Shown piece by piece: positions 11,842-34,751 of a stretch of DNA of 38,146 bases (positions are counted from its first letter, which is position 1; each line of letters starts with the position of its first letter). The position numbers and the translations under genes are program-made. The notes under the pieces were generated by a model. The model searched no databases and was not told where the DNA came from. It was given only the letters and a program-made list of their open reading frames with translations. Source of the stretch: Xanthobacter aminoxidans (GTDB taxonomy: Bacteria > Pseudomonadota > Alphaproteobacteria > Rhizobiales > Xanthobacteraceae); NCBI RefSeq assembly GCF_023571765.1, contig NZ_JAMJXC010000030.1:1-38146 (forward strand), given 5' to 3'.

Positions 11842-11857
11842 TGTCAGATTTGCGACA
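11842..11857. promoter_or_regulatory. Shared NifA-type activator site
   Basis: TGTcagatttgcgACA is an exact TGT-N10-ACA. It lies 83 bp from the minus-strand -24 element (11759) and 41 bp from the plus-strand -24 element (11898), so one site could serve both divergent promoters. Confidence 0.7.
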
Positions 11858-11897
11858 GCCCAGCCGCCTGTGCGGCCGCATTTGCACCAATGACAAG

Positions 11898-11913
11898 TGG
11901 TGCCGCGCTTGCA
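11898..11913 (+). promoter_or_regulatory. sigma-54 promoter of bolA-grx
   Basis: TGGTGCCGCGCTTGCA keeps the -24 GG and a perfect TTGCA at correct spacing. The start would be near 11925, leaving a leader of about 20 nt before bolA. Confidence 0.75.
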
Positions 11914-11945
11914 TGGGGGCGTCGCACATCGAAGGAGACAGCGCG

Positions 11946-12179
11946 ATGGCCATGGCCGCAGACGAAATCGAGCGCCTCGTGAAGGAGGCTCTTCCAGACA
12001 GCCAGGTGATGATCATCGATCTCGCCGGCGACGGCGACCACTACGCCGCCCGCATCACCTCGGAAGCCTTCAAGGGCAAGAGCCGCGTCCAGCAGCACCA
12101 GATGGTCTATGCGGCGCTTGGCGAGCACATGGGCGGCACCTTGCACGCCCTCAAGCTGGAGACGCTGATCCCCAAGTGA
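11946..12179 (+). CDS. bolA: BolA-family protein
   Basis: This 77-aa protein is a short BolA/IbaG-type domain: [58 protein letters not shown]. BolA proteins bind CGFS glutaredoxins and bridge a [2Fe-2S] cluster with them; the conserved C-terminal His (HAL) fits that role. The next gene is such a glutaredoxin, 92 nt downstream. GGAGA before the ATG at 11946 supports this start over an open upstream frame rich in Cys/Arg. Confidence 0.92.
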
Positions 12180-12271
12180 GATCGTCCGCAGCGCCATACA
12201 AGTCGCGGCGGGTTCCGGCCCATTTCAAATCCACATTTTCATCCGCTTCGTTTCAATCAGGAGACTGCCCC

Positions 12272-12601
<330 letters not shown>

Positions 12602-12614
12602 CAGGTTGATCCAG

Positions 12615-12652
12615 AAAAAAGGGCCCGGACGCGAGCGCATCCGGGCCCTTTT
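12615..12652. terminator. Bidirectional terminator
   Basis: AAAAAA (12615-12620), a 9-bp stem GGGCCCGGA/TCCGGGCCC (12621-12629 with 12640-12648), then TTTT. It can end the plus-strand bolA-grx unit and the minus-strand unit that stops at 12761. Confidence 0.85.
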
Positions 12653-12760
12653 GCTGCACTATGGAACGACCTCGAAAACATGCCGGGCCGGATGAAACAG
12701 TCGGCCCTCAAGTATTCGCAAAACCGAAAGACCCTGCACCGGCCATTCGTCCAGGCCGGC

Positions 12761-12985
12761 TCACGCCGCCTTGGTGGCCGCCTCGACCTTGAAGGCGTCC
12801 ACATCGGCGCGGGTCAGGCGGAACACGCCGCGACCGCCGGCCAGAGCCTGGTAGGTGAGCGGAACACGGTAGGACAGAAAATCGAACCATTCCTGCGGGT
12901 TCAGGCCCTGGGGCCGCTCGCTGATTTCGGCGATGGTCCCGTTGGCCGCAAAGCGGGCGTGAATGATGACTGCTTCGTCGCTCAT
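12761..12985 (-). CDS. Small protein of unknown function
   Basis: I do not recognise this 74-aa protein. It begins MSDEAVIIHARFAANGTIAE and continues NPQEWFDFLSYRVPLTYQAL, with a helix at the C-terminus (RADVDAFKVEAATKAA). Aromatic residues are clustered and there is no Cys. GGAGAG stands 5 nt before the ATG at 12985. It is the last gene of the DegT/ferredoxin-like unit, 216 nt downstream of the cysteine-free ferredoxin-like gene; I found no sigma-54 promoter in that gap on this strand. Confidence 0.7.
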   Translation of the reverse strand: MSDEAVIIHARFAANGTIAEISERPQGLNPQEWFDFLSYRVPLTYQALAGGRGVFRLTRADVDAFKVEAATKAA

Positions 12986-13201
12986 CTCATCTCTCCTCTC
13001 AACGTTCTTCACTGGCGCGGACCCGAAGGGGAGGACTTGGCCGCCCGAAGCCCGCACGACGACTTGATTACCCGGCACGCTTTTTGTTGAGCTCCCGGCA
13101 GCGCGCCACCGGAAGCTTTTGTCTTCAGCCACGGCCGGAAGGCTCCGCCCTTCCCGCCGCCGACGGTCCCGGCGCCCCCGCGGGAGCGCCGCCCAGCGCG
13201 A

Positions 13202-13516
13202 TCAGAAGCCCGAGAACTCGCCGAGCAGCTCGATGGTCACGTTCTCGGTGCCGAGCACGGTGACGTGCTTGGCGAGGCGTGACTTGGAGCCGACACCGAC
13301 GATCGCGTCGAGGCTTTCGTTCTCCTCACGGGTGGTCTTGGAGAGGCCCTTGCGGCCTTCCTGGACGAACACGTGGGACGCGCTGCCGTCCTTGTCGCTC
13401 TTCTGGCGCTCCGCGAGCCCCGGCTCGACGGTGATGAGCGCCTCGAGGAGGTTCGTGCCCTCCCCGACTTCAATGGTCTTGCCCATGGGGAGGACCTTCA
13501 GCGTAACCGTGGACAT
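13202..13516 (-). CDS. Ferredoxin-fold protein without any cysteine
   Basis: The 104-aa sequence follows the plan of a nif-type [2Fe-2S] ferredoxin: TVTLKVLPMGKTIEVGEGTNLLEAL (strands and helix), SASHVFVQEG, LSKTTREENESLD, then SRLAKH and ENVTIELLGEFSG at the end. In true members the loop before SASHVFV carries CxxxxCxxC and the late motif reads SRLxCQ. Here the loop is Lys/Asp/Gly/Ser and the motif is SRLAKH (Lys83). No Cys occurs anywhere, so no [2Fe-2S] cluster of the usual kind can bind. AGGAG 6 nt before ATG 13516 is a good ribosome site. The gene follows the DegT-like gene. Confidence 0.8.
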   Translation of the reverse strand: MSTVTLKVLPMGKTIEVGEGTNLLEALITVEPGLAERQKSDKDGSASHVFVQEGRKGLSKTTREENESLDAIVGVGSKSRLAKHVTVLGTENVTIELLGEFSGF

Positions 13517-13568
13517 CAACAACTCCTGTCGTTTCGTCTTAGTGTTTGGGGTGCGATCTTGTTGCGCT

Positions 13569-14774
13569 TCAGTAGATGGCGGCGCCCGCCCCTACATTGA
13601 CCGAGGCATCCTTCATCGTTGCCACGATGAACTCGATCTCCTCCTCGCTCAGGTGGGTGTGGAACGGCAGCGCCACCGCGCGGTCGGCCACCTTCTCCGT
13701 CACAAGGAAGTCGCCCCGGCGATAGCCGAGGTCGAAATAGTGCCGCTGCACATGCAGCGGCGTGCTGTAGCCGGCGGATTCAACCTTCTCCACCTTGAGA
13801 TCCTCGACGATGGAATCGCGGCTCGACTTGGAGAAACGGGTGCCGAGATGGACCACGTAGAGGAACCAGTTCACCTCGGTCACGTCCGGCCCGATGAAGG
13901 GGTCCTTGATACCCTCGAAGGACTGGACGTACTTCTGGTAGAGGTGCTCCACCGTACGCCGCTGCTCGAGGATCTCCTCGAGCCGGCGCAGCTGGGTCAG
14001 GCCCAGCGCGGCGGTGATGTCGCTCATGGCGCCCTGGTAGGGCGCGCTCATGCTGACGACGACGGAGGACCGCTCCTCCAGCTTGTGGGAGCGGAAGCGC
14101 CGCAGCGCCACGGCGACGTCGATGTCGTCCGTCACCACCATGCCGCCCTCGCCGCACACGATGGGGAAGGGCTGTGAGAAATCGAACACGGCCGTGTCGC
14201 CGAACGTCCCCACCAACGCGCCCTTGTAGCGCGAGCCGATGGCCTCGGTGGAATCCTCGATGAGCGCCAGATTGTGCTTGCGGGCCAACTCCTGGAAGTC
14301 CGTCCACGGCGCGGGATGGCCGTTGGTGTTGCCGGCGACGATGGCCTTGGTCTTGTCGGTGATCTTCGCCTCGGCCTTGGCCGGCACGAGGGTTCCCGCC
14401 CAGTAGTCGATGTCGGCGAACACCGGACGCGCGCCGGACAGGCTGATGGCGTGCACGGTCTCGCGGAAGGAATAGGGCGAGGCGATCACCTCGTCCCCCG
14501 GACCGATGCCGTAGGCCTTCAGGGTGTAGAGCAGGCCCAGCGTACCGCTCGGCACCGCGACGGCATATTTGCGGCCGAGATAGGCCGCGAACTCCGCCTC
14601 GAACTTCTCCGCGAGCGGCCCGCTGGACAGGCGCGGCGCCTGCATGGCCTCGGTCACCGCCTGCAGCTCGATGACGGTGATGTCCGGATCCGACAGGAGG
14701 ATGCTGGTGGCCTCGCCCCCCTCGCACTCGCTCTCGCCGAGGTCGAAATCGTCCAGGAAATCGGCGTCGCTCAT
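13569..14774 (-). CDS. DegT/DnrJ/EryC1/StrS-fold protein lacking the PLP lysine
   Basis: The 401-aa protein has the DegT-family aminotransferase fold: SGPLAEKFEAEFAAYLGRKY, AVPSGTLGLLYTLKAYGIGPGDEV, IEDSTEAIGSRYKG (Asp174 fits the PLP pyridine-N ligand), FDFSQPFPIVCGEGGMVVT (197-215), and the C-terminal domain. In the family the lysine that binds PLP sits four residues before GEGG-type glycines plus one (FSF-x3-K-x4-GEGG); here that position is Phe203. Schiff-base chemistry is thus unlikely. The acidic N-terminus (DFLDDFDLGESECEGGE) is extra. It starts at 14774 and overlaps the previous stop (TGATG), so translation is coupled. Confidence 0.82.
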   Translation of the reverse strand: MSDADFLDDFDLGESECEGGEATSILLSDPDITVIELQAVTEAMQAPRLSSGPLAEKFEAEFAAYLGRKYAVAVPSGTLGLLYTLKAYGIGPGDEVIASPYSFRETVHAISLSGARPVFADIDYWAGTLVPAKAEAKITDKTKAIVAGNTNGHPAPWTDFQELARKHNLALIEDSTEAIGSRYKGALVGTFGDTAVFDFSQPFPIVCGEGGMVVTDDIDVAVALRRFRSHKLEERSSVVVSMSAPYQGAMSDITAALGLTQLRRLEEILEQRRTVEHLYQKYVQSFEGIKDPFIGPDVTEVNWFLYVVHLGTRFSKSSRDSIVEDLKVEKVESAGYSTPLHVQRHYFDLGYRRGDFLVTEKVADRAVALPFHTHLSEEEIEFIVATMKDASVNVGAGAAIY

Positions 14775-15037
14775 CACGCGCTCCGCCTTGCGAGGATCAC
14801 GCCGGTGGCGGCGCCGGGATCGGAGGTGATGTGGGCGCAGTGGTCCGCGGTGTCGAGCAGATGCACGTCGTATCTGGGATAGGTGCGGAACGGCGCCTCG
14901 GTGACGTCGGAGGCGTCGCACTGGGTCCAGGAGAGCGCCGGAAAGCGCTTGCGCAGTTCGGCGAAGACCGGGCCCGCCGGCTCCTCGGCGGTGAGCACCT
15001 TCTCGATCTCGGTGAGGTCGCTGTCGCTCAGGGCCAT
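14774..15037 (-). CDS. Small protein of unknown function (possibly DUF6129)
   Basis: This 87-aa protein starts MALSDSDLTEIEKVLTAEE and has FAELRKRFPALSWTQCDASD, YDVHLLDTADHCAHITSDP and ATGVILARR. The pattern recalls small proteins seen in other nif clusters (I think DUF6129), but I cannot verify the name. Cys and His in DTADHCAHI could bind a metal. Its stop codon overlaps the start of the DegT-like gene by one base. A sigma-54 promoter lies 67 nt upstream. Confidence 0.72.
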   Translation of the reverse strand: MALSDSDLTEIEKVLTAEEPAGPVFAELRKRFPALSWTQCDASDVTEAPFRTYPRYDVHLLDTADHCAHITSDPGAATGVILARRSA

Positions 15038-15103
15038 AACCTTACTCTCCCGTACCGGAATGAGACACGACCGGCGGCTTTGTCGCGGTCCGTCCCATGC
15101 CAT

Positions 15104-15118
15104 GCAGGATCATTGCCA
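15104..15118 (-). promoter_or_regulatory. sigma-54 promoter of the DegT/ferredoxin-like unit
   Basis: Read on the minus strand the site is TGGCAATGATCCTGC followed by A: exact TGGCA at -24, CTGCA at -12, correct spacing. It lies just past the stop codon of the gene at 15126. No exact TGT-N10-ACA site was found within 350 bp upstream. Confidence 0.75.
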
Positions 15119-15125
15119 GTTTGGA

Positions 15126-15455
15126 TCACTGCCAAAATCGACGCTCGGTGTCGTCGTTCAGTAGCTCCAGCAATTCCTTCAGCCGCTCGTGAATACTGTC
15201 GAGCTCCCAGAGGTGCTTGCCGTGGTTCTTGCGGAACAGCTGCCAGGAGGCCTGCTCCGGATCGAAGATCATCAGGGCGATGTCCACCACCCCGCCGTCG
15301 GGATCGATGTTGCGCGAGCAGCACGCGCTCTCGATCCGGTAGCCGCCCTCCGTGGCGACGACGCGGGGCGTGACATAGCGATAGCGCTTGCGCGCCCTTA
15401 TGGCGCGCTCGATGCGCTTCCTGTCGAGATCGTTCGGATGAGCGGGCAGCCTCAT
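15126..15455 (-). CDS. Nif-cluster protein of unknown function
   Basis: The 109-aa protein begins MRLPAHPNDLDRKRIERAIRARK and continues with RYRYVTPRVVATEGGYRIES, ACCSRNIDPDGGVVDIALM, LFRKNHGKHLWELDS, and a helix ending NDDTERRFWQ. The ACCSRN motif with vicinal cysteines and a His-rich stretch could bind metal. It resembles short proteins I associate with nif clusters (perhaps DUF3024), which is uncertain. The ATG at 15455 is used; no strong ribosome site is visible. It lies between a repeat element and a sigma-54 promoter, so its own promoter is unclear. Confidence 0.65.
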   Translation of the reverse strand: MRLPAHPNDLDRKRIERAIRARKRYRYVTPRVVATEGGYRIESACCSRNIDPDGGVVDIALMIFDPEQASWQLFRKNHGKHLWELDSIHERLKELLELLNDDTERRFWQ

Positions 15456-15502
15456 CGTCCTATCTCTCGCGGCTGTGTGACGCGCACGGCCGGCGCCGCG
15501 CA

Positions 15503-15553
15503 TCTAGAGCATTTTCGAGCGAAGTGGAGTCCGGTTCGCGTGAAGAAAATGCG
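15503..15553. repeat. Rhizobiales-type intergenic palindrome
   Basis: The element runs from TCTAGAGCATTTTCGAGCGA to GAAGAAAATGCG, with GCATTTTC (15509-15516) opposite GAAAATGC (15545-15552). I recall very similar sequences scattered between genes in Rhizobiales genomes. It is directly followed by a second palindrome sharing GAGCATTTTCG. Confidence 0.6.
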
Positions 15554-15565
15554 GACTGTCAAAAG

Positions 15566-15611
15566 CCTGGAGCATTTTCGGCGGACCGATGTTCGCCGAA
15601 AATGCTCCAGG
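15566..15611 (-). terminator. Long inverted repeat ending the nifB operon
   Basis: An 18-bp perfect stem (15566-15583 with 15594-15611) has a 10-nt loop and the core TGGAGCATTTTCGGCG. On the minus strand CTTTTGAC follows the stem, 3 nt after the second nifZ stop codon, so it can end the nifB operon. Its core matches the neighbouring repeat, suggesting a mobile palindrome taken over as terminator. Confidence 0.65.
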
Positions 15612-15613
15612 GA

Positions 15614-15856
15614 TCAGAGCGGCTGGATCTCTTCCTCGAGGCAGCCCACCACCAGGCGCTCGTTGAACTCGATCAGGTAGATGGGCGTGTTCGTGTCCGT
15701 GTGCTGGCCCACCTGCACGATCTCGCCGACCGTGCCGACACCCACCAGCAGCCCCTCGTCCGGCATGTCGGGATAGGACCCGTCATTGTAGAGGTCGATG
15801 AGGGTCTTGACCTTCATGCCCCAGTCGTACTTGGGCAGGCGTGGTTCGAGCATCAT
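15614..15856 (-). CDS. nifZ: Second NifZ-domain protein
   Basis: The 80-aa protein has the NifZ SH3-like core: MMLEPRLPKYDWGMKVKTLI, DGSYPDMPDEGLLVGVGTVGE, and PIYLIEFNERLVVGCLEEE. NifZ helps mature the P-clusters of the MoFe protein. The adjacent longer NifZ aligns over the (D/N)DG(S/T)Y, G-E-I/V and IY-x-(V/I)EF positions, so the two are tandem relatives. The ATG at 15856 has GGAG 10 nt upstream; a second ATG follows directly. It overlaps or abuts the previous stop, and an 18-bp inverted repeat follows. Confidence 0.8.
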   Translation of the reverse strand: MMLEPRLPKYDWGMKVKTLIDLYNDGSYPDMPDEGLLVGVGTVGEIVQVGQHTDTNTPIYLIEFNERLVVGCLEEEIQPL

Positions 15857-15861
15857 GATAA

Positions 15862-16179
15862 TCAAACTCCGGGGGCGGGGGGCAGCGGGATGTCCTGTTC
15901 TTCGCGCGGAACGGCGCTTTCCAGTTCCTTGCGCTTCATGCCGACGCGGTTGCCGCTCTCGGTGAACTCGACGCCGTAGATGTAGAACTGCTGGAGGAAG
16001 GTACCGATGGAGACGACGTAGCCGATCTCGCCCTTCTTCGCGAGAATCTCGCCGATCTCCTTGCCGGCATAGGTTCCGTCGTTGCGGATGACCCGCTTCG
16101 CCTTCACCTTCTCGCCGAAATTGAAGTAAGGCGGCTCGGAAATCTCCACCACATCGCTGTCGCGGACGATGTTGCTCAT
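15862..16179 (-). CDS. nifZ: NifZ, MoFe protein P-cluster maturation protein
   Basis: This 105-aa protein has classic NifZ motifs: EPPYFNFGEKVKAKRVIRND, GTYAGKEIGEILAKKGEIGY, VVSIGTFLQQFYIYGVEF. NifZ is needed for full P-cluster formation in NifDK. The C-terminus is Pro-rich (DIPLPPAPGV). It begins with an ATGA overlap with the end of the LRV gene, so the two are translated together. It belongs to the nifB operon. Confidence 0.92.
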   Translation of the reverse strand: MSNIVRDSDVVEISEPPYFNFGEKVKAKRVIRNDGTYAGKEIGEILAKKGEIGYVVSIGTFLQQFYIYGVEFTESGNRVGMKRKELESAVPREEQDIPLPPAPGV

Positions 16180-16958
16180 AGCGGCATCTCCCTCAAGAGC
16201 TGCCCGCCCGCCTTGATGCGGGAGCGGGCGACCTCGCGCACGAACTCGTCGTCATCTTCCAGGAACCGGGCGAGCTGGGACGGCGCCACCCGGCCGGCGA
16301 CCTCGTGGCGCACCCGCCAGTCCGCGTCGGACGCGAGGGCCGGAAGAAGGTCCGGGGCGAGGCGCTGGGCCACCTCCAGGCGGACGGCCGCGCTGCGGTC
16401 GCCGGCCATGCACATCAGCCATTCGGACGGCAGCCGCTGGGCCACCACCTTGCGCACCTCCGGCTCGGGATCGTCCACGAGGCGCGACAGCAGCGGCGGC
16501 GCGATGCGGCGGGCCACCACCAGGCGCACATAGTAATCGTCGTCCGCCAGCATGGGCGCGAGTTCCGCATCCTCCAGCAGCGAGACGATGCGGATGCGCA
16601 CCTCGCGATGGGGATCGTTGCGCAGCGGCAGGATGAGCCGCTTGGGCAGCCGGCGCGCCGCATTCCAGCGCACGGTCTCCTCGGGGTCGTTGAGGAGCGG
16701 CTTCAGGAAGAACACGTCCGCGTGCTTCGCCGCGATGGCCCGGACTTCGAAATGTTCGTGGCGGACATAGGAATTGGCAAGCGCCGGATTCCAGTTGAAG
16801 AAGCGGTCGATGCGCCGGGCGTAGCGGTCGTTCACGCAGGCCCGCCTCAGCTGGCACTTGCCGGCCGGCAGAAGGTCCGCCGCGTGGACGCAGCGCCGGC
16901 AGTCAATGTCTTCGCCGAGCCAGGTCTTGGCATCCTCGATGTCGTCGTCAGTCTTCAT
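16176..16958 (-). CDS. 4Fe-4S leucine-rich-repeat-variant (LRV) protein, copy 2
   Basis: The 260-aa protein has an N-terminal cysteine set (C20, C23, C35, C41), then RRIDRFF and about eight LRV repeats (for example DPHREVRIRIVSLL, DPEPEVRKVVAQRL, DADWRVRHEVAGRV). It matches the LRV protein at 4397-5200 in length, C-x2-C and C-x5-C spacing, RRIDRFF and repeat pattern. A role as a redox-sensitive or Fe-S-linked binding scaffold is only inferred. It overlaps the TPR gene by 11 nt upstream and nifZ by 4 nt downstream, so it is translationally coupled in the nifB operon. Confidence 0.88.
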   Translation of the reverse strand: MKTDDDIEDAKTWLGEDIDCRRCVHAADLLPAGKCQLRRACVNDRYARRIDRFFNWNPALANSYVRHEHFEVRAIAAKHADVFFLKPLLNDPEETVRWNAARRLPKRLILPLRNDPHREVRIRIVSLLEDAELAPMLADDDYYVRLVVARRIAPPLLSRLVDDPEPEVRKVVAQRLPSEWLMCMAGDRSAAVRLEVAQRLAPDLLPALASDADWRVRHEVAGRVAPSQLARFLEDDDEFVREVARSRIKAGGQLLREMPL

Positions 16959-18166: not shown

Positions 18167-19741
18167 TCAGGCCGCGTTGATGAGCGCGCCCTGCCGGATC
18201 TCGGCGTCGCCGCGCGCGGTGTGGACGATCTCGCCGGTCTTCACCTTGTTCAGGTATTCCTTGAACCAGGTGATCGCCGACTTCTCGATGAACTCGTGGG
18301 CGAAGGTGTCGACGGGCTCGATGCCGGCCTTGATGAGGTCCGCCTTCGGGCAGCCGCCGATCTTCGCCACGAACACCGCATGGCAGTCGTTGATGGCGCG
18401 GATGATGGTCTCGAGGCTGTCCTCCTCGCCGTAGCCGCCCTGGCAATACAGGTCGACGCGGCGATGGCCGACGAACTTGGCGCCCGCCGTGGAGAGTTCC
18501 CACACCTGGAACTCCTTGGCGTGGCCGAAGTGCTCGTTGATGAGGCCCGAGCCCTTGGTGGCAACCGCGGTGAGCAGCTTGATGTCGCTCTGCTCGCCGG
18601 CGAGAGCCTCCAGCTCCTCCTGCTTCGCCGCCACCTTGGCGACGCGCTCTTCCTCGACGAGGGCCTGGTAGGCCTTGCGGCTGTCGAGGTCGTAATTGAC
18701 CTCCATGGCCATGATCTTGTCGGTGGTGAACTCGGCGGAGCGGTCCTCGCCGAGGAGGCCCACGGCGTCGGCGCGGCACTGACGGCAGTGACGCATCATG
18801 TTCATCTCGCCCTCGCACTCGTCCTGGAGCGCCTTGAGCTCCTGGGCGGTGGGGCCACGCTGGCCGTTGAGGCCAAACACGGTGCCATGCTCGGGGGAGG
18901 AGATGAGCGGCATGATGTTGTGCAGGAACGCGCCACGCGACTTCACCGCACGGTTTACTTCGACAAGATGCTTGTCGTTGATGCCCGGGATCATCACCGA
19001 GTTCACCTTGCACAGGATGCCGCGCTCGGTGAGCATCTCGAGGCCGAGCATCTGCCGGTCGGTGAGGAGCTTGGCCGCCTCATAGCCGGTGTAGCGCTTG
19101 TGCTTCCAGAACACCCAGGGATAGATCTTCGCGCCGACCTCGGGGTCCACCATGTTGATGGTGATGGTCACGTGGTCCACGTTGAAGCCGGCGATGGTGT
19201 CCACGTGGTCCGGCAGGGCAAGGCCGTTGGTGGACAGGCAGAGCTTGATGTCCGGGGCGGTCCGGTTGATCAGCTCGAAGGTCTTGAAGGTCTTCTCGGG
19301 GTTGGCGAGCGGGTCGCCGGGGCCGGCGATGCCGAGCACGGTCATCTGCGGAATGGTGGAGGCCACGGCCAGCACCTTCTTCGCGGCCTGCTCGGGCGTC
19401 AGCTTCTCGGAGACCACGCCGGGGCGGCTCTCGTTGGCGCAGTCATACTTGCGATTGCAGTAGTTGCACTGGATGTTGCACGCCGGGGCAACGGCAACAT
19501 GCATACGCGCATAGTGGTGGTGGGCTTCTTCACTGTAGCAGGGATGGTTCTTCACCTTCTCCCAGATCTCGGTGGGCAGGTCGCCCTGGCCGGCCGACGA
19601 GCCGCAGCTCGCCTTGCCCGAACCACCCGAGGTGCCGCAGCCCTGGTGCTCGGCCTTGGCCTGCATGACCTCGGCCAGCTTCTCGTCCATTCCGACGGCG
19701 TTCATGCCAACCGCGTTTTCTTGCTGTGTCGACGCGTGCAT
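18167..19741 (-). CDS. nifB: NifB, radical SAM FeMo-co precursor (NifB-co) synthase
   Basis: NifB fuses two [4Fe-4S] clusters and inserts a carbide and sulfur to make NifB-co. The 524-aa protein has the radical SAM motif C88-x3-C92-x2-C95 (CNIQCNYC), the further ligands Cys68 ([16 protein letters not shown]) and Cys101 ([12 protein letters not shown]), and [17 protein letters not shown]-terminal NifX-like cofactor-binding domain (about 395-510) follows, with [20 protein letters not shown]. The N-terminal 60 residues are Gly/Ser/Cys-rich. It heads the nifB operon behind a sigma-54 promoter and two NifA sites. Confidence 0.97.
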
Positions 19742-19795: not shown

Positions 19796-19810
19796 GCAAC
19801 AGCCGTGCCA
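19796..19810 (-). promoter_or_regulatory. sigma-54 promoter of nifB
   Basis: Read on the minus strand the site is TGGCACGGCTGTTGC, a perfect -24/-12 match. The start is expected near 19784, about 43 nt before nifB. Confidence 0.9.
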
Positions 19811-20090: not shown

Positions 20091-20957
20091 TCAGGCCGAC
20101 ATGATGACGTCGAGCGCCTTCGGCAGCGACATGGCGATGGGCGTGATGGCGTGGGTGAGCAGGAAGCGCAGCTCGTTCTTGGTGAGCGTCGCCTCGTCCA
20201 CGATGGCGAAGTGCGGCGCGCGCGAACGCTTGGAGATCTGCCGGGCGTAGGTGCGCAGCATCTGGTCGTGGAAGCGACAGCCGAGGAACAGGAAGCTGCG
20301 CTCGGTGCGGCGGTTCTTCACCACGTCCGGGATGGGCGTCTGGATGTCGATCTCGGTGAGGACTTCCACATAGTCCGCGTCGGAGATCAGCCAGTTCTTC
20401 GCCGGCGCGGCGCTGCCGTGGGGCTTGTAGAGCACGGTCTTCCAGCCTTCCGCGGTGGCGCGGTCGCTCTCGGTGCCGGCGTGATCATAGAAGCGATACC
20501 AGCGGTCCTCGCCGATGCCGGCGCGGGTGATGCCCTGCGCCTCGCCCCAGTCGGCACGGCCGGCGAGGGCCGCGCGCATGGCGCCGTCGTACCAAGTGTC
20601 CACGATCAGCGCGAGGGGCAGGCCCGCGAGAAAGGTGTGGAACGGCAGCGGCGGCACCTGGGGCCCAAACGCCTCCGCCATCAAGGCGGAGACGGTGTTG
20701 CGGTGCTTCATGCTCTCGATGTGCTGGGCCGCGGCCCAGCAATTGCCCTTGGCGCGCTTGGGCAGGGCCACCTTGGTGCCGAAGAAGACCGAAAGGTCTT
20801 CCGGCGTCACCGGGATGGCGGGGGCTCCGAGGGCGAGGAGGCCGGGCCCGAGGTAGGGCACGACCTTGTCGGCGCGCAACTCCGCCGCCACGTCCTTCAG
20901 GACGGCTTCGGCGTCGGCGAGCTTCAGCGTCTCGATATTGGCGACGGAAATGTTCAT
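20091..20957 (-). CDS. SIR2-like (SIR2_2-type) protein
   Basis: This 288-aa protein resembles SIR2-like domains (SIR2_2 group): [15 protein letters not shown] (32-46) fits the N-terminal NAD loop, [19 protein letters not shown] (178-196) fits the HG-s-x-P and late strand, and [13 protein letters not shown] (222-234) fits the (F/I)xGxSxxD motif. True sirtuin features such as a zinc-binding Cys4 are not seen. SIR2-like proteins bind or cleave NAD; deacylation is only one possibility. It lies 6 nt after nifT, so it is in the nifS-nifT transcript. I recall SIR2-family genes next to nifT in some diazotrophs, but their function is not known to me. Confidence 0.78.
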
Positions 20958-32855: not shown

Positions 32856-34751
32856 CTATTCGGCGGCCACGAGCGCGGCCGGCGTGCCGAGCGGGGCGAC
32901 GAGTTCGTCCAGCATGTCCTCGATGCGCTCACCGCACTTACCGCAGCCGGAGCCGGCCTCGGTGCGGGCGGTCACCTCGGCGAGATTGGAGGCGCCGGCG
33001 GCAACCGCATCCTCGATGGTGCCGACGGTGACGCTCTTGCAGTTGCAGACCTTCTTGGCGCGGCGCGCGGCCTCGGCCAGCACCGGATCAGCCGGCGCGG
33101 GCTCCGCGACGCCAAGCGCCTCGAAGATGTCCTCGATGCGGCCCGAGCACGCGCCGCACCCGCCGGAGGCATTGGTGTGGGTCTTCACGCCCTCGACCGT
33201 GGTGAGGCTGTGCGCCTTGATGGCGTCCTCGATGGTGCCGAGGTCCACACTCTTGCAATTGCAGATCTTCTTGGCGCGACGGGCCTTCTCGGCGGCGACC
33301 GGATCGGCGGCGAGGGCGGCCGCTTCGGCCTCCATCTGGGCGATGGCGCGGTTCTGCCAGTTGTTGGCCGGGTTGTCCCATGGGGCGGGCTTGCGCACCT
33401 GCTCCCAGATGGGATTGTAGAGCGCCTTGTCGATCTCCTCCACGAGCTTCACCATGCCGATGTAGCCCATGTAGGCGTGGTGGCGCTCCTGGTTGATGTC
33501 GAGCCACGGCATGGCGGCCTTGAGCGCGATGAACTGCGAGCGGCCACCCGAGAGCATGATGTCCGCCTTCGCGTCCTTCAGCATCTTGTACATTTCGCGG
33601 GGCGTCATGTCGTCGATCATGTGGGCATCCTGCCCCATGAGCTCCTTGATGCGCTCCTTGTCCTCCTTGGTGGACTTCTTCACCGAGGTGCCGACCAGTT
33701 CGAGGCCGGCCTCCTGCAGCGCAGCCACCACCGACCAAGACTTCACGCCGCCGGTGATGAGCAGCACCTTCTTGTCCTTGAAGCGGTCCTTGAACTTGGC
33801 GATCGCCGCCCAGGCCTTCGCCTCCTCGCGCTCGATGAGCGCCTCGGTGCGGTCCATCAGCTCGGGATCGGCGCCGCGCTCGATGAGCATGCGGGCGATC
33901 TCGCGGAGCGAATCCGAGGAATCCTGAATGCCGTAGAAGGAACCCTCGAAGAAGGGGATGTCGTAGCGCTCCTCCATCTTGCGGGCCACGTTGATCATGG
34001 CCTTCGAGCACACCATCATCGCCGCCTTGGCGCGGTGGGAGGAGGCCACATCCTTGTAGCGGCCGTCGCCGGAGATGCAGGCGAGGATGCGGATGCCCAG
34101 CTCGTCGAGCAGCGGCTTCACCTGCCACAGTTCGCCGGAGAGATTGTATTCGCCAATGATGTTGATGTCGTAGGGCGTCGTGTAGTCCGGCTCCTCGGTG
34201 CCGATGACGTGCTCGAGGATGGCCTCACCGGCCAGCTTGTTGCCGAGGTTCTTCGGGCCCACGAAGCCGGGGGAATTGATCGGGATGACCGGCGTGCCGA
34301 ACTTCTCCTTCGCCGCCTTGCAGACCGCGTCGATGTCGTCGCCGATCATGGCGGGCACGCAGGTCTGGTAGACGAAGACGGCCGGCGGGTCGTACTTCTC
34401 GATGATTTCCTTGATGGACTTGAACAGGCGCTTCTCGCCGCCGAACACCACGTCCGTCTCGTTGATGTCGGTGGTGAAGCCGGTGCGCCAGATCTGCGAG
34501 CCGGAGGAGCGCGCGCCGCGGTTGTCCCAGCTGTTGCCTTCGCAGGCAATGGGGCCATGCACCAGGTGCGCGACATCGGTCAGCGGCTGAAGGGCGATCT
34601 TGGCGCCGTCGAAAGCGCAGCCGCCGGCGGCACCGCCGGGCTGGAGCTGCTTGGTGCACCCCTTCTTCTTTTCCGCCTCCGATTTGTTCTGGTTCTTCGC
34701 GCAGCCGGGCTCGTTGAACACTTGCTGGATCGTGGCGGAAACCGAGCTCAT
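32856..34751 (-). CDS. nifE: NifE with two C-terminal NifU-type [2Fe-2S] (BFD) domains
   Basis: NifE is the NifD-like half of the NifEN scaffold. Residues 1-470 are normal NifE: CAFDGAKIALQPLTDVAHLV (Cys45), GPIACEGNSWDNRG (Cys70), VYQTCVPAMIGDD (Cys131), MMVCSKAMINVARKMEERYD (Cys248). The protein is 631 aa, about 150 longer than the usual 475. The extension holds two BFD-like domains with C497-x-C499-x32-C532-x2-C535 and C569-x-C571-x31-C603-x2-C606, as in the middle domain of full NifU and in bacterioferritin-associated ferredoxin. They are joined by Ala/Pro-rich linkers (nt 32892-33284). The separate NifU at 22562 lacks this domain. Confidence 0.96.
   Translation of the reverse strand: MSSVSATIQQVFNEPGCAKNQNKSEAEKKKGCTKQLQPGGAAGGCAFDGAKIALQPLTDVAHLVHGPIACEGNSWDNRGARSSGSQIWRTGFTTDINETDVVFGGEKRLFKSIKEIIEKYDPPAVFVYQTCVPAMIGDDIDAVCKAAKEKFGTPVIPINSPGFVGPKNLGNKLAGEAILEHVIGTEEPDYTTPYDINIIGEYNLSGELWQVKPLLDELGIRILACISGDGRYKDVASSHRAKAAMMVCSKAMINVARKMEERYDIPFFEGSFYGIQDSSDSLREIARMLIERGADPELMDRTEALIEREEAKAWAAIAKFKDRFKDKKVLLITGGVKSWSVVAALQEAGLELVGTSVKKSTKEDKERIKELMGQDAHMIDDMTPREMYKMLKDAKADIMLSGGRSQFIALKAAMPWLDINQERHHAYMGYIGMVKLVEEIDKALYNPIWEQVRKPAPWDNPANNWQNRAIAQMEAEAAALAADPVAAEKARRAKKICNCKSVDLGTIEDAIKAHSLTTVEGVKTHTNASGGCGACSGRIEDIFEALGVAEPAPADPVLAEAARRAKKVCNCKSVTVGTIEDAVAAGASNLAEVTARTEAGSGCGKCGERIEDMLDELVAPLGTPAALVAAE

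Follow-up and report, generated by a model that had tools for sequence, protein, structure and literature searches.

A cysteine-free homologue of nif-linked [2Fe-2S] ferredoxins is retained under purifying selection in Xanthobacter and may act as a docking or assembly factor

Ferredoxins are thought to act through their cluster. The genome of Xanthobacter aminoxidans encodes, among its nif genes, a ferredoxin-like protein with no Cys residue at all, which raises the question of what this protein is and why it has been kept. The window analyzed here is the whole stretch of 38,146 nucleotides surrounding the gene, and the protein under study is called the window protein. The features of the gene are as follows.

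13202..13516, minus strand: Cys-less nif ferredoxin homologue of 104 aa (profile matches, orthologues, AF2 model and Foldseek)
13523-13527, minus strand: ribosome-binding site AGGAG, 6 nt ahead of the ATG, read by eye
13373..13420, minus strand: former cluster-binding loop, residues 33-48, with Q, G and S in three of the four ligand columns (coordinates counted from the ATG)
13268..13270, minus strand: codon of the fourth ligand column, Lys in the window protein
13223..13372, minus strand: conserved C-terminal half, residues 49-98, including the EEN..LD stretch

The frame running from 13516 to 13202 on the minus strand comprises 104 residues and a stop codon, and its translation contains zero Cys. 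In the alignment, the four ligand columns are occupied by Q38, G44, S47 and K83 instead of Cys (numbering counted by eye). The initial annotation had described a protein free of Cys and stripped of all four ligand positions, with a good ribosome site and frame, and it was right on each of these points. The frame is open in 14/14 Xanthobacter genomes, and since some of these assemblies consist of one or two contigs, sequencing error is excluded. The genus-wide open orthologues, together with the dN/dS values given below, also rule out an artefact or a wrongly chosen strand. Selenocysteine or stop read-through, considered for the relatives L020 and L021 on account of a 'TGA inside' flag, was rejected, as the TGA is an ordinary stop that ends the frame.

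The model TIGR02007 (fdx_isc) matches residues 7-97 of the window protein colinearly with an E value of 3.2e-9. The score of 36.9 bits against a curated cut-off of 132.1 marks the protein as homologous, not as an equivalog, and the four-Cys relative L027 scores 68.5 against the same model. The PDB chain 3ah7 is matched by the window protein at E 3.7e-4. When we searched solved structures with a profile of 32 family members, ISC ferredoxins (Fdx), adrenodoxins and putidaredoxins were matched, with 1i7h at 6e-15. Pfam Fer2 (PF00111) matches 14 of the 19 members of alignment A3, but neither Fer2 nor any other Pfam family matched the window protein at E up to 10, so a routine Pfam scan would overlook it. 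Judged by its sequence, the window protein is a true ferredoxin homologue by descent.

The AF2 model of the window protein (pLDDT 81, pTM 0.71) is predicted to adopt the beta-grasp ferredoxin fold of the adrenodoxin/FdC type, in agreement with the fold originally proposed. Its top Foldseek match was FdC of R. capsulatus (TM 0.77/0.85), followed closely by ISC ferredoxins and adrenodoxins, and nearly all of the 34 PDB matches at E <= 0.001 are titled as ferredoxins or as complexes that hold one; the list also contains the chain 8e73_FD, which we take to be of the C1-FDX type. The model places a helix at residues 33-40, within the old cluster loop, whereas L027 modelled from the same rows (pLDDT 69.6) shows a loop without a helix. 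We put little weight on this contrast because the model contains no cluster. In the C-terminal half, the EEN..LD stretch is also present in the aligned adrenodoxin-type ferredoxins, and in adrenodoxins the corresponding helix carries partner contacts.

A profile search found one strong copy of the ferredoxin in each of the 14 Xanthobacter genomes. The copies of 12 genomes have zero Cys, while L013 (genome G008, with an identical protein in an X. tagetidis record, L024) has 2 Cys and L014 (genome G006) has 3 Cys; the loss is thus conserved across related species, with partial sets left in 2/14. In the 12 zero-Cys genomes the fourth ligand column holds Lys in 10, Ser in one and Ala in one. No close four-Cys paralogue was found in the 14 genomes, the ferredoxin itself matching at 1e-43 or better and the next hits reaching 1e-8 at best, and a compensating close paralogue was accordingly rejected at the profile level. 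Across the window's bacterial family, the ferredoxin was found in 41 of 391 genomes.

Outside Xanthobacter, all four ligand columns are Cys in 66 of 76 tree rows (66/90 overall). The remaining 24 of the 90 rows are the 12 zero-Cys rows, L013, L014, L026, L114, L020 and seven rows of a Methylocapsa-type clade. These seven have 4-5 re-spaced Cys residues and, from that number, could well have kept the ability to hold a cluster. Outside Xanthobacter, loss of ligands is rare and is seen in L114 and L026 with 1 Cys each and in L020 with 3 Cys. The host of L026 is uncertain, since its metagenome bin also contains the four-Cys copy L104, and L114 belongs to a different genome. Three genomes have two ferredoxin copies each, namely G1165 (L134/L140), G1171 (L135/L141) and G1207 (L137/L142); in all three, Cys fills all four columns in the copy unlinked to a degT gene, and the spacing is altered in the DegT-linked one. 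The bin G1157 is a counter-case, in which both copies (4 and 1 Cys) have DegT upstream.

Phylogenetic trees were built from 90 of 91 distinct sequences, with L019 omitted and L044 as outgroup. When the loop and fourth-ligand columns are excluded, the 14 Xanthobacter rows group together in a single clade (100/96), and the 12 zero-Cys rows form a clade inside it with support of 82/91 without these columns and 99/93 with all columns. L014 retains the first, third and fourth ligand Cys, so the loss on the Xanthobacter branch was stepwise or occurred several times. The 16 degenerate rows (14 from Xanthobacter plus L026 and L114) were grouped in 44% of 200 bootstrap trees, and L026 and L114 may or may not share the Xanthobacter origin of loss. 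L020 is a separate case. Given the four-Cys orthologues in 66 of the 76 outside rows, the sequences point to a ferredoxin family that lost its ligands on the Xanthobacter branch rather than to a dedicated Cys-less family. The initial annotation had staked its reading on relatives that also lack the four Cys; that expectation failed outside the genus, and a Cys-less protein under selection still stands within it.

Is the Cys-less gene still under constraint? The median dN/dS was 0.154 for zero-Cys genes (66 pairs) against 0.123 for four-Cys relatives (91 pairs from 14 rows), and the Cys-less protein is under purifying selection. When pN/pS was calculated by region, the zero-Cys genes gave 0.275 in the N-terminal part, 0.452 in the cluster loop and 0.168 in the C-terminal half, against 0.295, 0.211 and 0.215 in 22 four-Cys rows; the four-Cys rows of both comparisons were hand-chosen and are of Xanthobacteraceae type. 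The value is raised in the loop alone, so that constraint was lifted just where the cluster sat: relaxation is confined to the old cluster loop, and constraint on the C-terminal half is no weaker than in the four-Cys forms. A pseudogene is ruled out by the dN/dS and regional pN/pS values. Within the loop, D-K-D-G-x-x-S-H is invariant in all 12 zero-Cys genomes. Since these genes are closely related, their common loop amounts to a single event observed many times. All 32 rows of alignment A1, four-Cys forms included, share His48; this alignment covers 32 of 39 loci and omits L019 (cut short), L022-L024 (repeats) and L031, L036 and L037 (near-copies).

The genomic context was then compared, for which the following features of the window are relevant.

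13569..14774, minus strand: DegT/DnrJ/EryC1-type protein (Pfam), immediate upstream neighbour, with Phe at the catalytic Lys position
14774..15034, minus strand: DUF6129 protein (Pfam), upstream of degT
12761..12985, minus strand: small conserved ORF of 74 aa, downstream of the ferredoxin gene, with relatives in 10/18 named nif loci
18167..19741, minus strand: nifB (NCBIfam), first gene of the same-strand run
19796..19810, minus strand: sigma-54 type site, exact TGGCAC-N5-TTGC, ahead of nifB (pattern search)
19869 and 19907: TGT-N10-ACA sites near the nifB sigma-54 type site (pattern search)

For 83 of 89 distinct ferredoxins, a count that includes the outgroup L044, the same strand carries a DegT relative upstream. 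The interval between the two matches is <100 nt in 64 of these 83 and 0.9-1.1 kb in seven (six named betaproteobacteria and G699). An upstream DegT is missing for L044 and for 5 of the 88 family members, L021, L134, L135, L137 and L139, of which L139 has only about 560 bases of upstream sequence. A degT relative is present in 18/18 named loci, with nifB and nifZ preceding where the locus extends far enough. By sequence and gene order together, the window protein is an orthologue of the nif-cluster [2Fe-2S] ferredoxin. The DegT protein aligns to sugar aminotransferases, and in the register taken from that alignment 36/36 distinct motifs have S, G, F, A, M or C, never K, in place of the PLP-binding Lys. 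As the catalytic Lys is absent throughout, in none of these bacteria is the DegT protein likely to be an ordinary aminotransferase. The residue preceding GEGG is Cys in 33 of the 36 motifs. A SIR2-like relative lies between or beside degT and the ferredoxin gene in the betaproteobacterial loci L032 and L035-L039, and in the window a SIR2-like protein (PF13289) is encoded upstream of nifB at 20091-20957 on the minus strand.

In the window, the same-strand run reads nifB, iscA-like, TPR, LRV, nifZ, DUF3024, DUF6129, degT and, last, the ferredoxin gene. The nif context proposed earlier holds: nifD, nifN, nifE and nifB on the same contig pass NCBIfam cut-offs, and NifZ and LRV_FeS pass Pfam cut-offs. 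In the comparison of named loci, 44 gene labels were assigned by eye and 20 of them checked with Pfam or NCBIfam; dlh and fdxB, read there out of frame, carry no weight in the comparison. The small ORF at 12761-12985 was unmatched in Pfam and NCBIfam. Of the 41 ferredoxin genomes, 36 have nifD over its cut-off, compared with 115 of 391 overall. The five others are assemblies of 210 to 800 contigs; the nifD model is matched only weakly in G894, G935 and G1097 (1e-42 to 1e-95, matches that could be nifE) and is unmatched in G010 and G060. Among the 12 zero-Cys genomes, 11 have nifD over the cut-off, the exception being G010. Allowing up to one mismatch, the window contains 10 TGGCAC-N5-TTGC sites against 2.9 expected, a number reached by 0/100 shuffles; the three exact sites (494, 19796 and 23397) all lie near TGT-N10-ACA sites, and the other seven have one mismatch. 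A scan of 12600-16300 found no terminator-like site between degT and the ferredoxin gene. These patterns are consistent with one NifA-driven transcript running from nifB to the ferredoxin gene.

Further genes of the window deserve mention. BolA and glutaredoxin genes (Pfam) lie at 11850-12601 on the plus strand, beside the ferredoxin gene on the opposite strand, and in L020 a BolA-like frame (label by eye) follows the ferredoxin immediately. NifE (32856-34751, minus strand) has two C-terminal BFD-like [2Fe-2S] domains, seen as two Fer2_BFD stretches. Two such domains are found in 13/13 Xanthobacter genomes with NifE recovered, while the other rows comprise 28 with one, 5 with none and 10 with two. 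NifE was missed by the motif search in L103 and L168, G1212 gave no nifE match past 1e-150, G010 gave a weak match only and G1157 fragments only. The idea that an extra NifE BFD domain replaces the lost ferredoxin cluster fails as a rule: 27 of the 28 one-BFD rows do have a ferredoxin with 4-5 Cys, but G1297 pairs a single BFD with a ferredoxin of 1 Cys, G344 lacks a BFD and has a ferredoxin of 3 Cys, and in 10 rows, from 7 genomes, two BFDs occur together with a ferredoxin of 4-5 Cys. Moreover, the comparison of BFD and Cys numbers includes only 2 independent pairs.

Based on these observations, we suggest, with a probability of about 0.55, that the window protein is a cluster-free pseudo-ferredoxin retained as a docking or assembly factor in nitrogenase maturation, with the Lys-less DegT protein as its nearest candidate partner. 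It is orthologous to an ISC/adrenodoxin-like [2Fe-2S] ferredoxin that is linked to nif and whose gene adjoins that of a DegT-like protein. Within the Xanthobacter lineage the ligands of the cluster were lost, so that none remained in most species, while purifying selection held the fold and the C-terminal surface and the old cluster loop was rebuilt. Judging from the missing ligands, the present protein should not bind a [2Fe-2S] cluster in the classical way; missing Cys does not prove missing metal. We infer that the conserved C-terminal surface binds a partner, for which DegT would be the nearest candidate and NifB, NifZ and LRV others, and that the protein could contribute to the maturation of nitrogenase or its clusters without electron transfer. 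DegT adjacency may reflect operon inheritance only. The strongest argument for a non-redox role, an indirect one, is the persistence of the protein, stripped of its ligands, in 12 genomes, of which 11 have nifD over the cut-off.

A broader version, which we hold only tentatively and regard as doubtful, is that the DegT protein of the whole family and the Xanthobacter ferredoxin, both having lost their catalytic anchors, form a non-catalytic scaffold on which Fe-S proteins are assembled during nitrogenase biosynthesis, and that this ferredoxin family can do its main job without a cluster. The genus-wide loss, in a gene under selection, makes the case more interesting than a single odd gene: evolution has performed a ligand-removal experiment inside a nitrogen-fixing genus, and the protein was retained. 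The case bears on whether this nif-linked ferredoxin family carries electrons or mainly holds proteins together, an answer relevant to the minimal gene set for moving nitrogenase into other organisms, and it draws attention to the conserved Lys-less DegT neighbour.

Several other explanations need to be considered. A relaxed, decaying gene whose product no longer matters would account for the loss of all ligands and the dropped constraint in the loop, but it is very improbable, being largely refuted by the selection analyses: the frame is open throughout the genus, dN/dS is close to that of the four-Cys relatives (0.154 vs 0.123) and the C-terminal half has lost no constraint. The pairing of a Lys-free DegT fold with a neighbouring [2Fe-2S] protein is reminiscent of the E1/E3 system, and the E1 dehydratase has His at the catalytic Lys position. 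DegT and the ferredoxin might accordingly be a deoxysugar-type pair of PMP-dependent E1 dehydratase and Fe-S reductase, broken in Xanthobacter, and the RfbH model PRK15407 of NCBIfam does match the DegT protein at 3.9e-45. PseC scores higher than RfbH on the same protein, however, and His never occupies the Lys position in the 36 motifs, leaving this pair extremely improbable. The initial annotation suggested a decoy, a docking mimic or a regulator competing for a redox partner. A decoy of this kind would sit where a working ferredoxin docks and thereby regulate electron flow to a nif redox partner, which fits a protein that keeps the EEN..LD stretch of adrenodoxin-type ferredoxins and has lost the ligands of the redox centre. 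The genome comparison speaks against a competitor: each Xanthobacter genome has a single strong copy with no close four-Cys paralogue to compete with, and elsewhere a four-Cys orthologue occupies the same position, so the Cys-less form took the place of the working copy instead of being added to it. We consider such a decoy rather unlikely.

The rebuilt loop might instead bind another metal, for example a single Fe via the invariant Asp, Ser and His, perhaps in a metal-carrier role. This is unlikely, if somewhat less so than the decoy: the loop motif and His48 are invariant as described, and plant C1-FDX is reported with a bound Fe ion (PMC9873573), but the predicted model has the helix at 33-40 in the loop, and the loop His, being also kept in four-Cys forms, need not be a ligand. 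Finally, the protein could protect nitrogenase like FeSII or FdxD, binding nitrogenase components under O2 without a cluster. The nif location would suit this role, FdD is implicated in the O2 protection of the Mo-nitrogenase of R. capsulatus (PMC10936413), and FeSII forms a complex with the MoFe and Fe proteins (PMC12585515). Its activation is described there as oxidation-induced, however, which a cluster-free protein could not directly copy, and no FeSII chain was among the 49 matches of the family profile to solved structures at E up to 1, with only a weak Foldseek match to the window model (E 1e-3, TM about 0.5). We judge protection quite unlikely, and return to the docking or assembly factor as the preferred reading.

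In the literature search, none of the matches listed (titles and abstract openings, with few subscription journals) concerned a nif ferredoxin free of Cys, a nif-cluster DegT lacking its Lys or, more generally, DegT in nif clusters, and no functional study of the DegT-linked nif ferredoxin family was found. The window protein is not mentioned in the accessible parts of PMC3045800, PMC12929197, PMC3538637 and PMC4999443. The search gives weak evidence for novelty.

Among known systems, plant C1-FDX of complex I is, like the window protein, ferredoxin-like; it is described as an unusual ferredoxin, and its authors conclude that it stabilises the complex (PMC9873573); it differs in being mitochondrial, in its bound Fe ion and in belonging to an unrelated pathway. 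FeSII (Shethna protein II), described as adrenodoxin-type (PMC11301756), and FdxD are nif-linked [2Fe-2S] proteins that carry a cluster. FdC (ferredoxin-4) of Rhodobacter capsulatus (9i2a) is the best fold match, with a weak sequence match (E 0.84); it is a nitrogen-fixation ferredoxin that carries a [2Fe-2S] cluster, unlike the window protein with its lost ligands, and in R. capsulatus deletion of fdxC slows growth on the Fe-nitrogenase whereas deletion of fdxD does not (PMC10936413). The ISC ferredoxin Fdx (1i7h and 3ah7) is the closest solved protein by sequence profile and among the best by fold, and it has four Cys ligands, unlike the window protein. The nif-cluster [2Fe-2S] ferredoxins of the same family, such as the four-Cys forms of Aquabacter (L027) and Rhodoblastus (L030), have the same neighbourhood and the same C-terminal motifs; two plasmid records label their relatives '2Fe-2S iron-sulfur cluster-binding protein', and the four-Cys rows of alignment A1 share 43-62% identity with the window protein but keep all four Cys where it has none.
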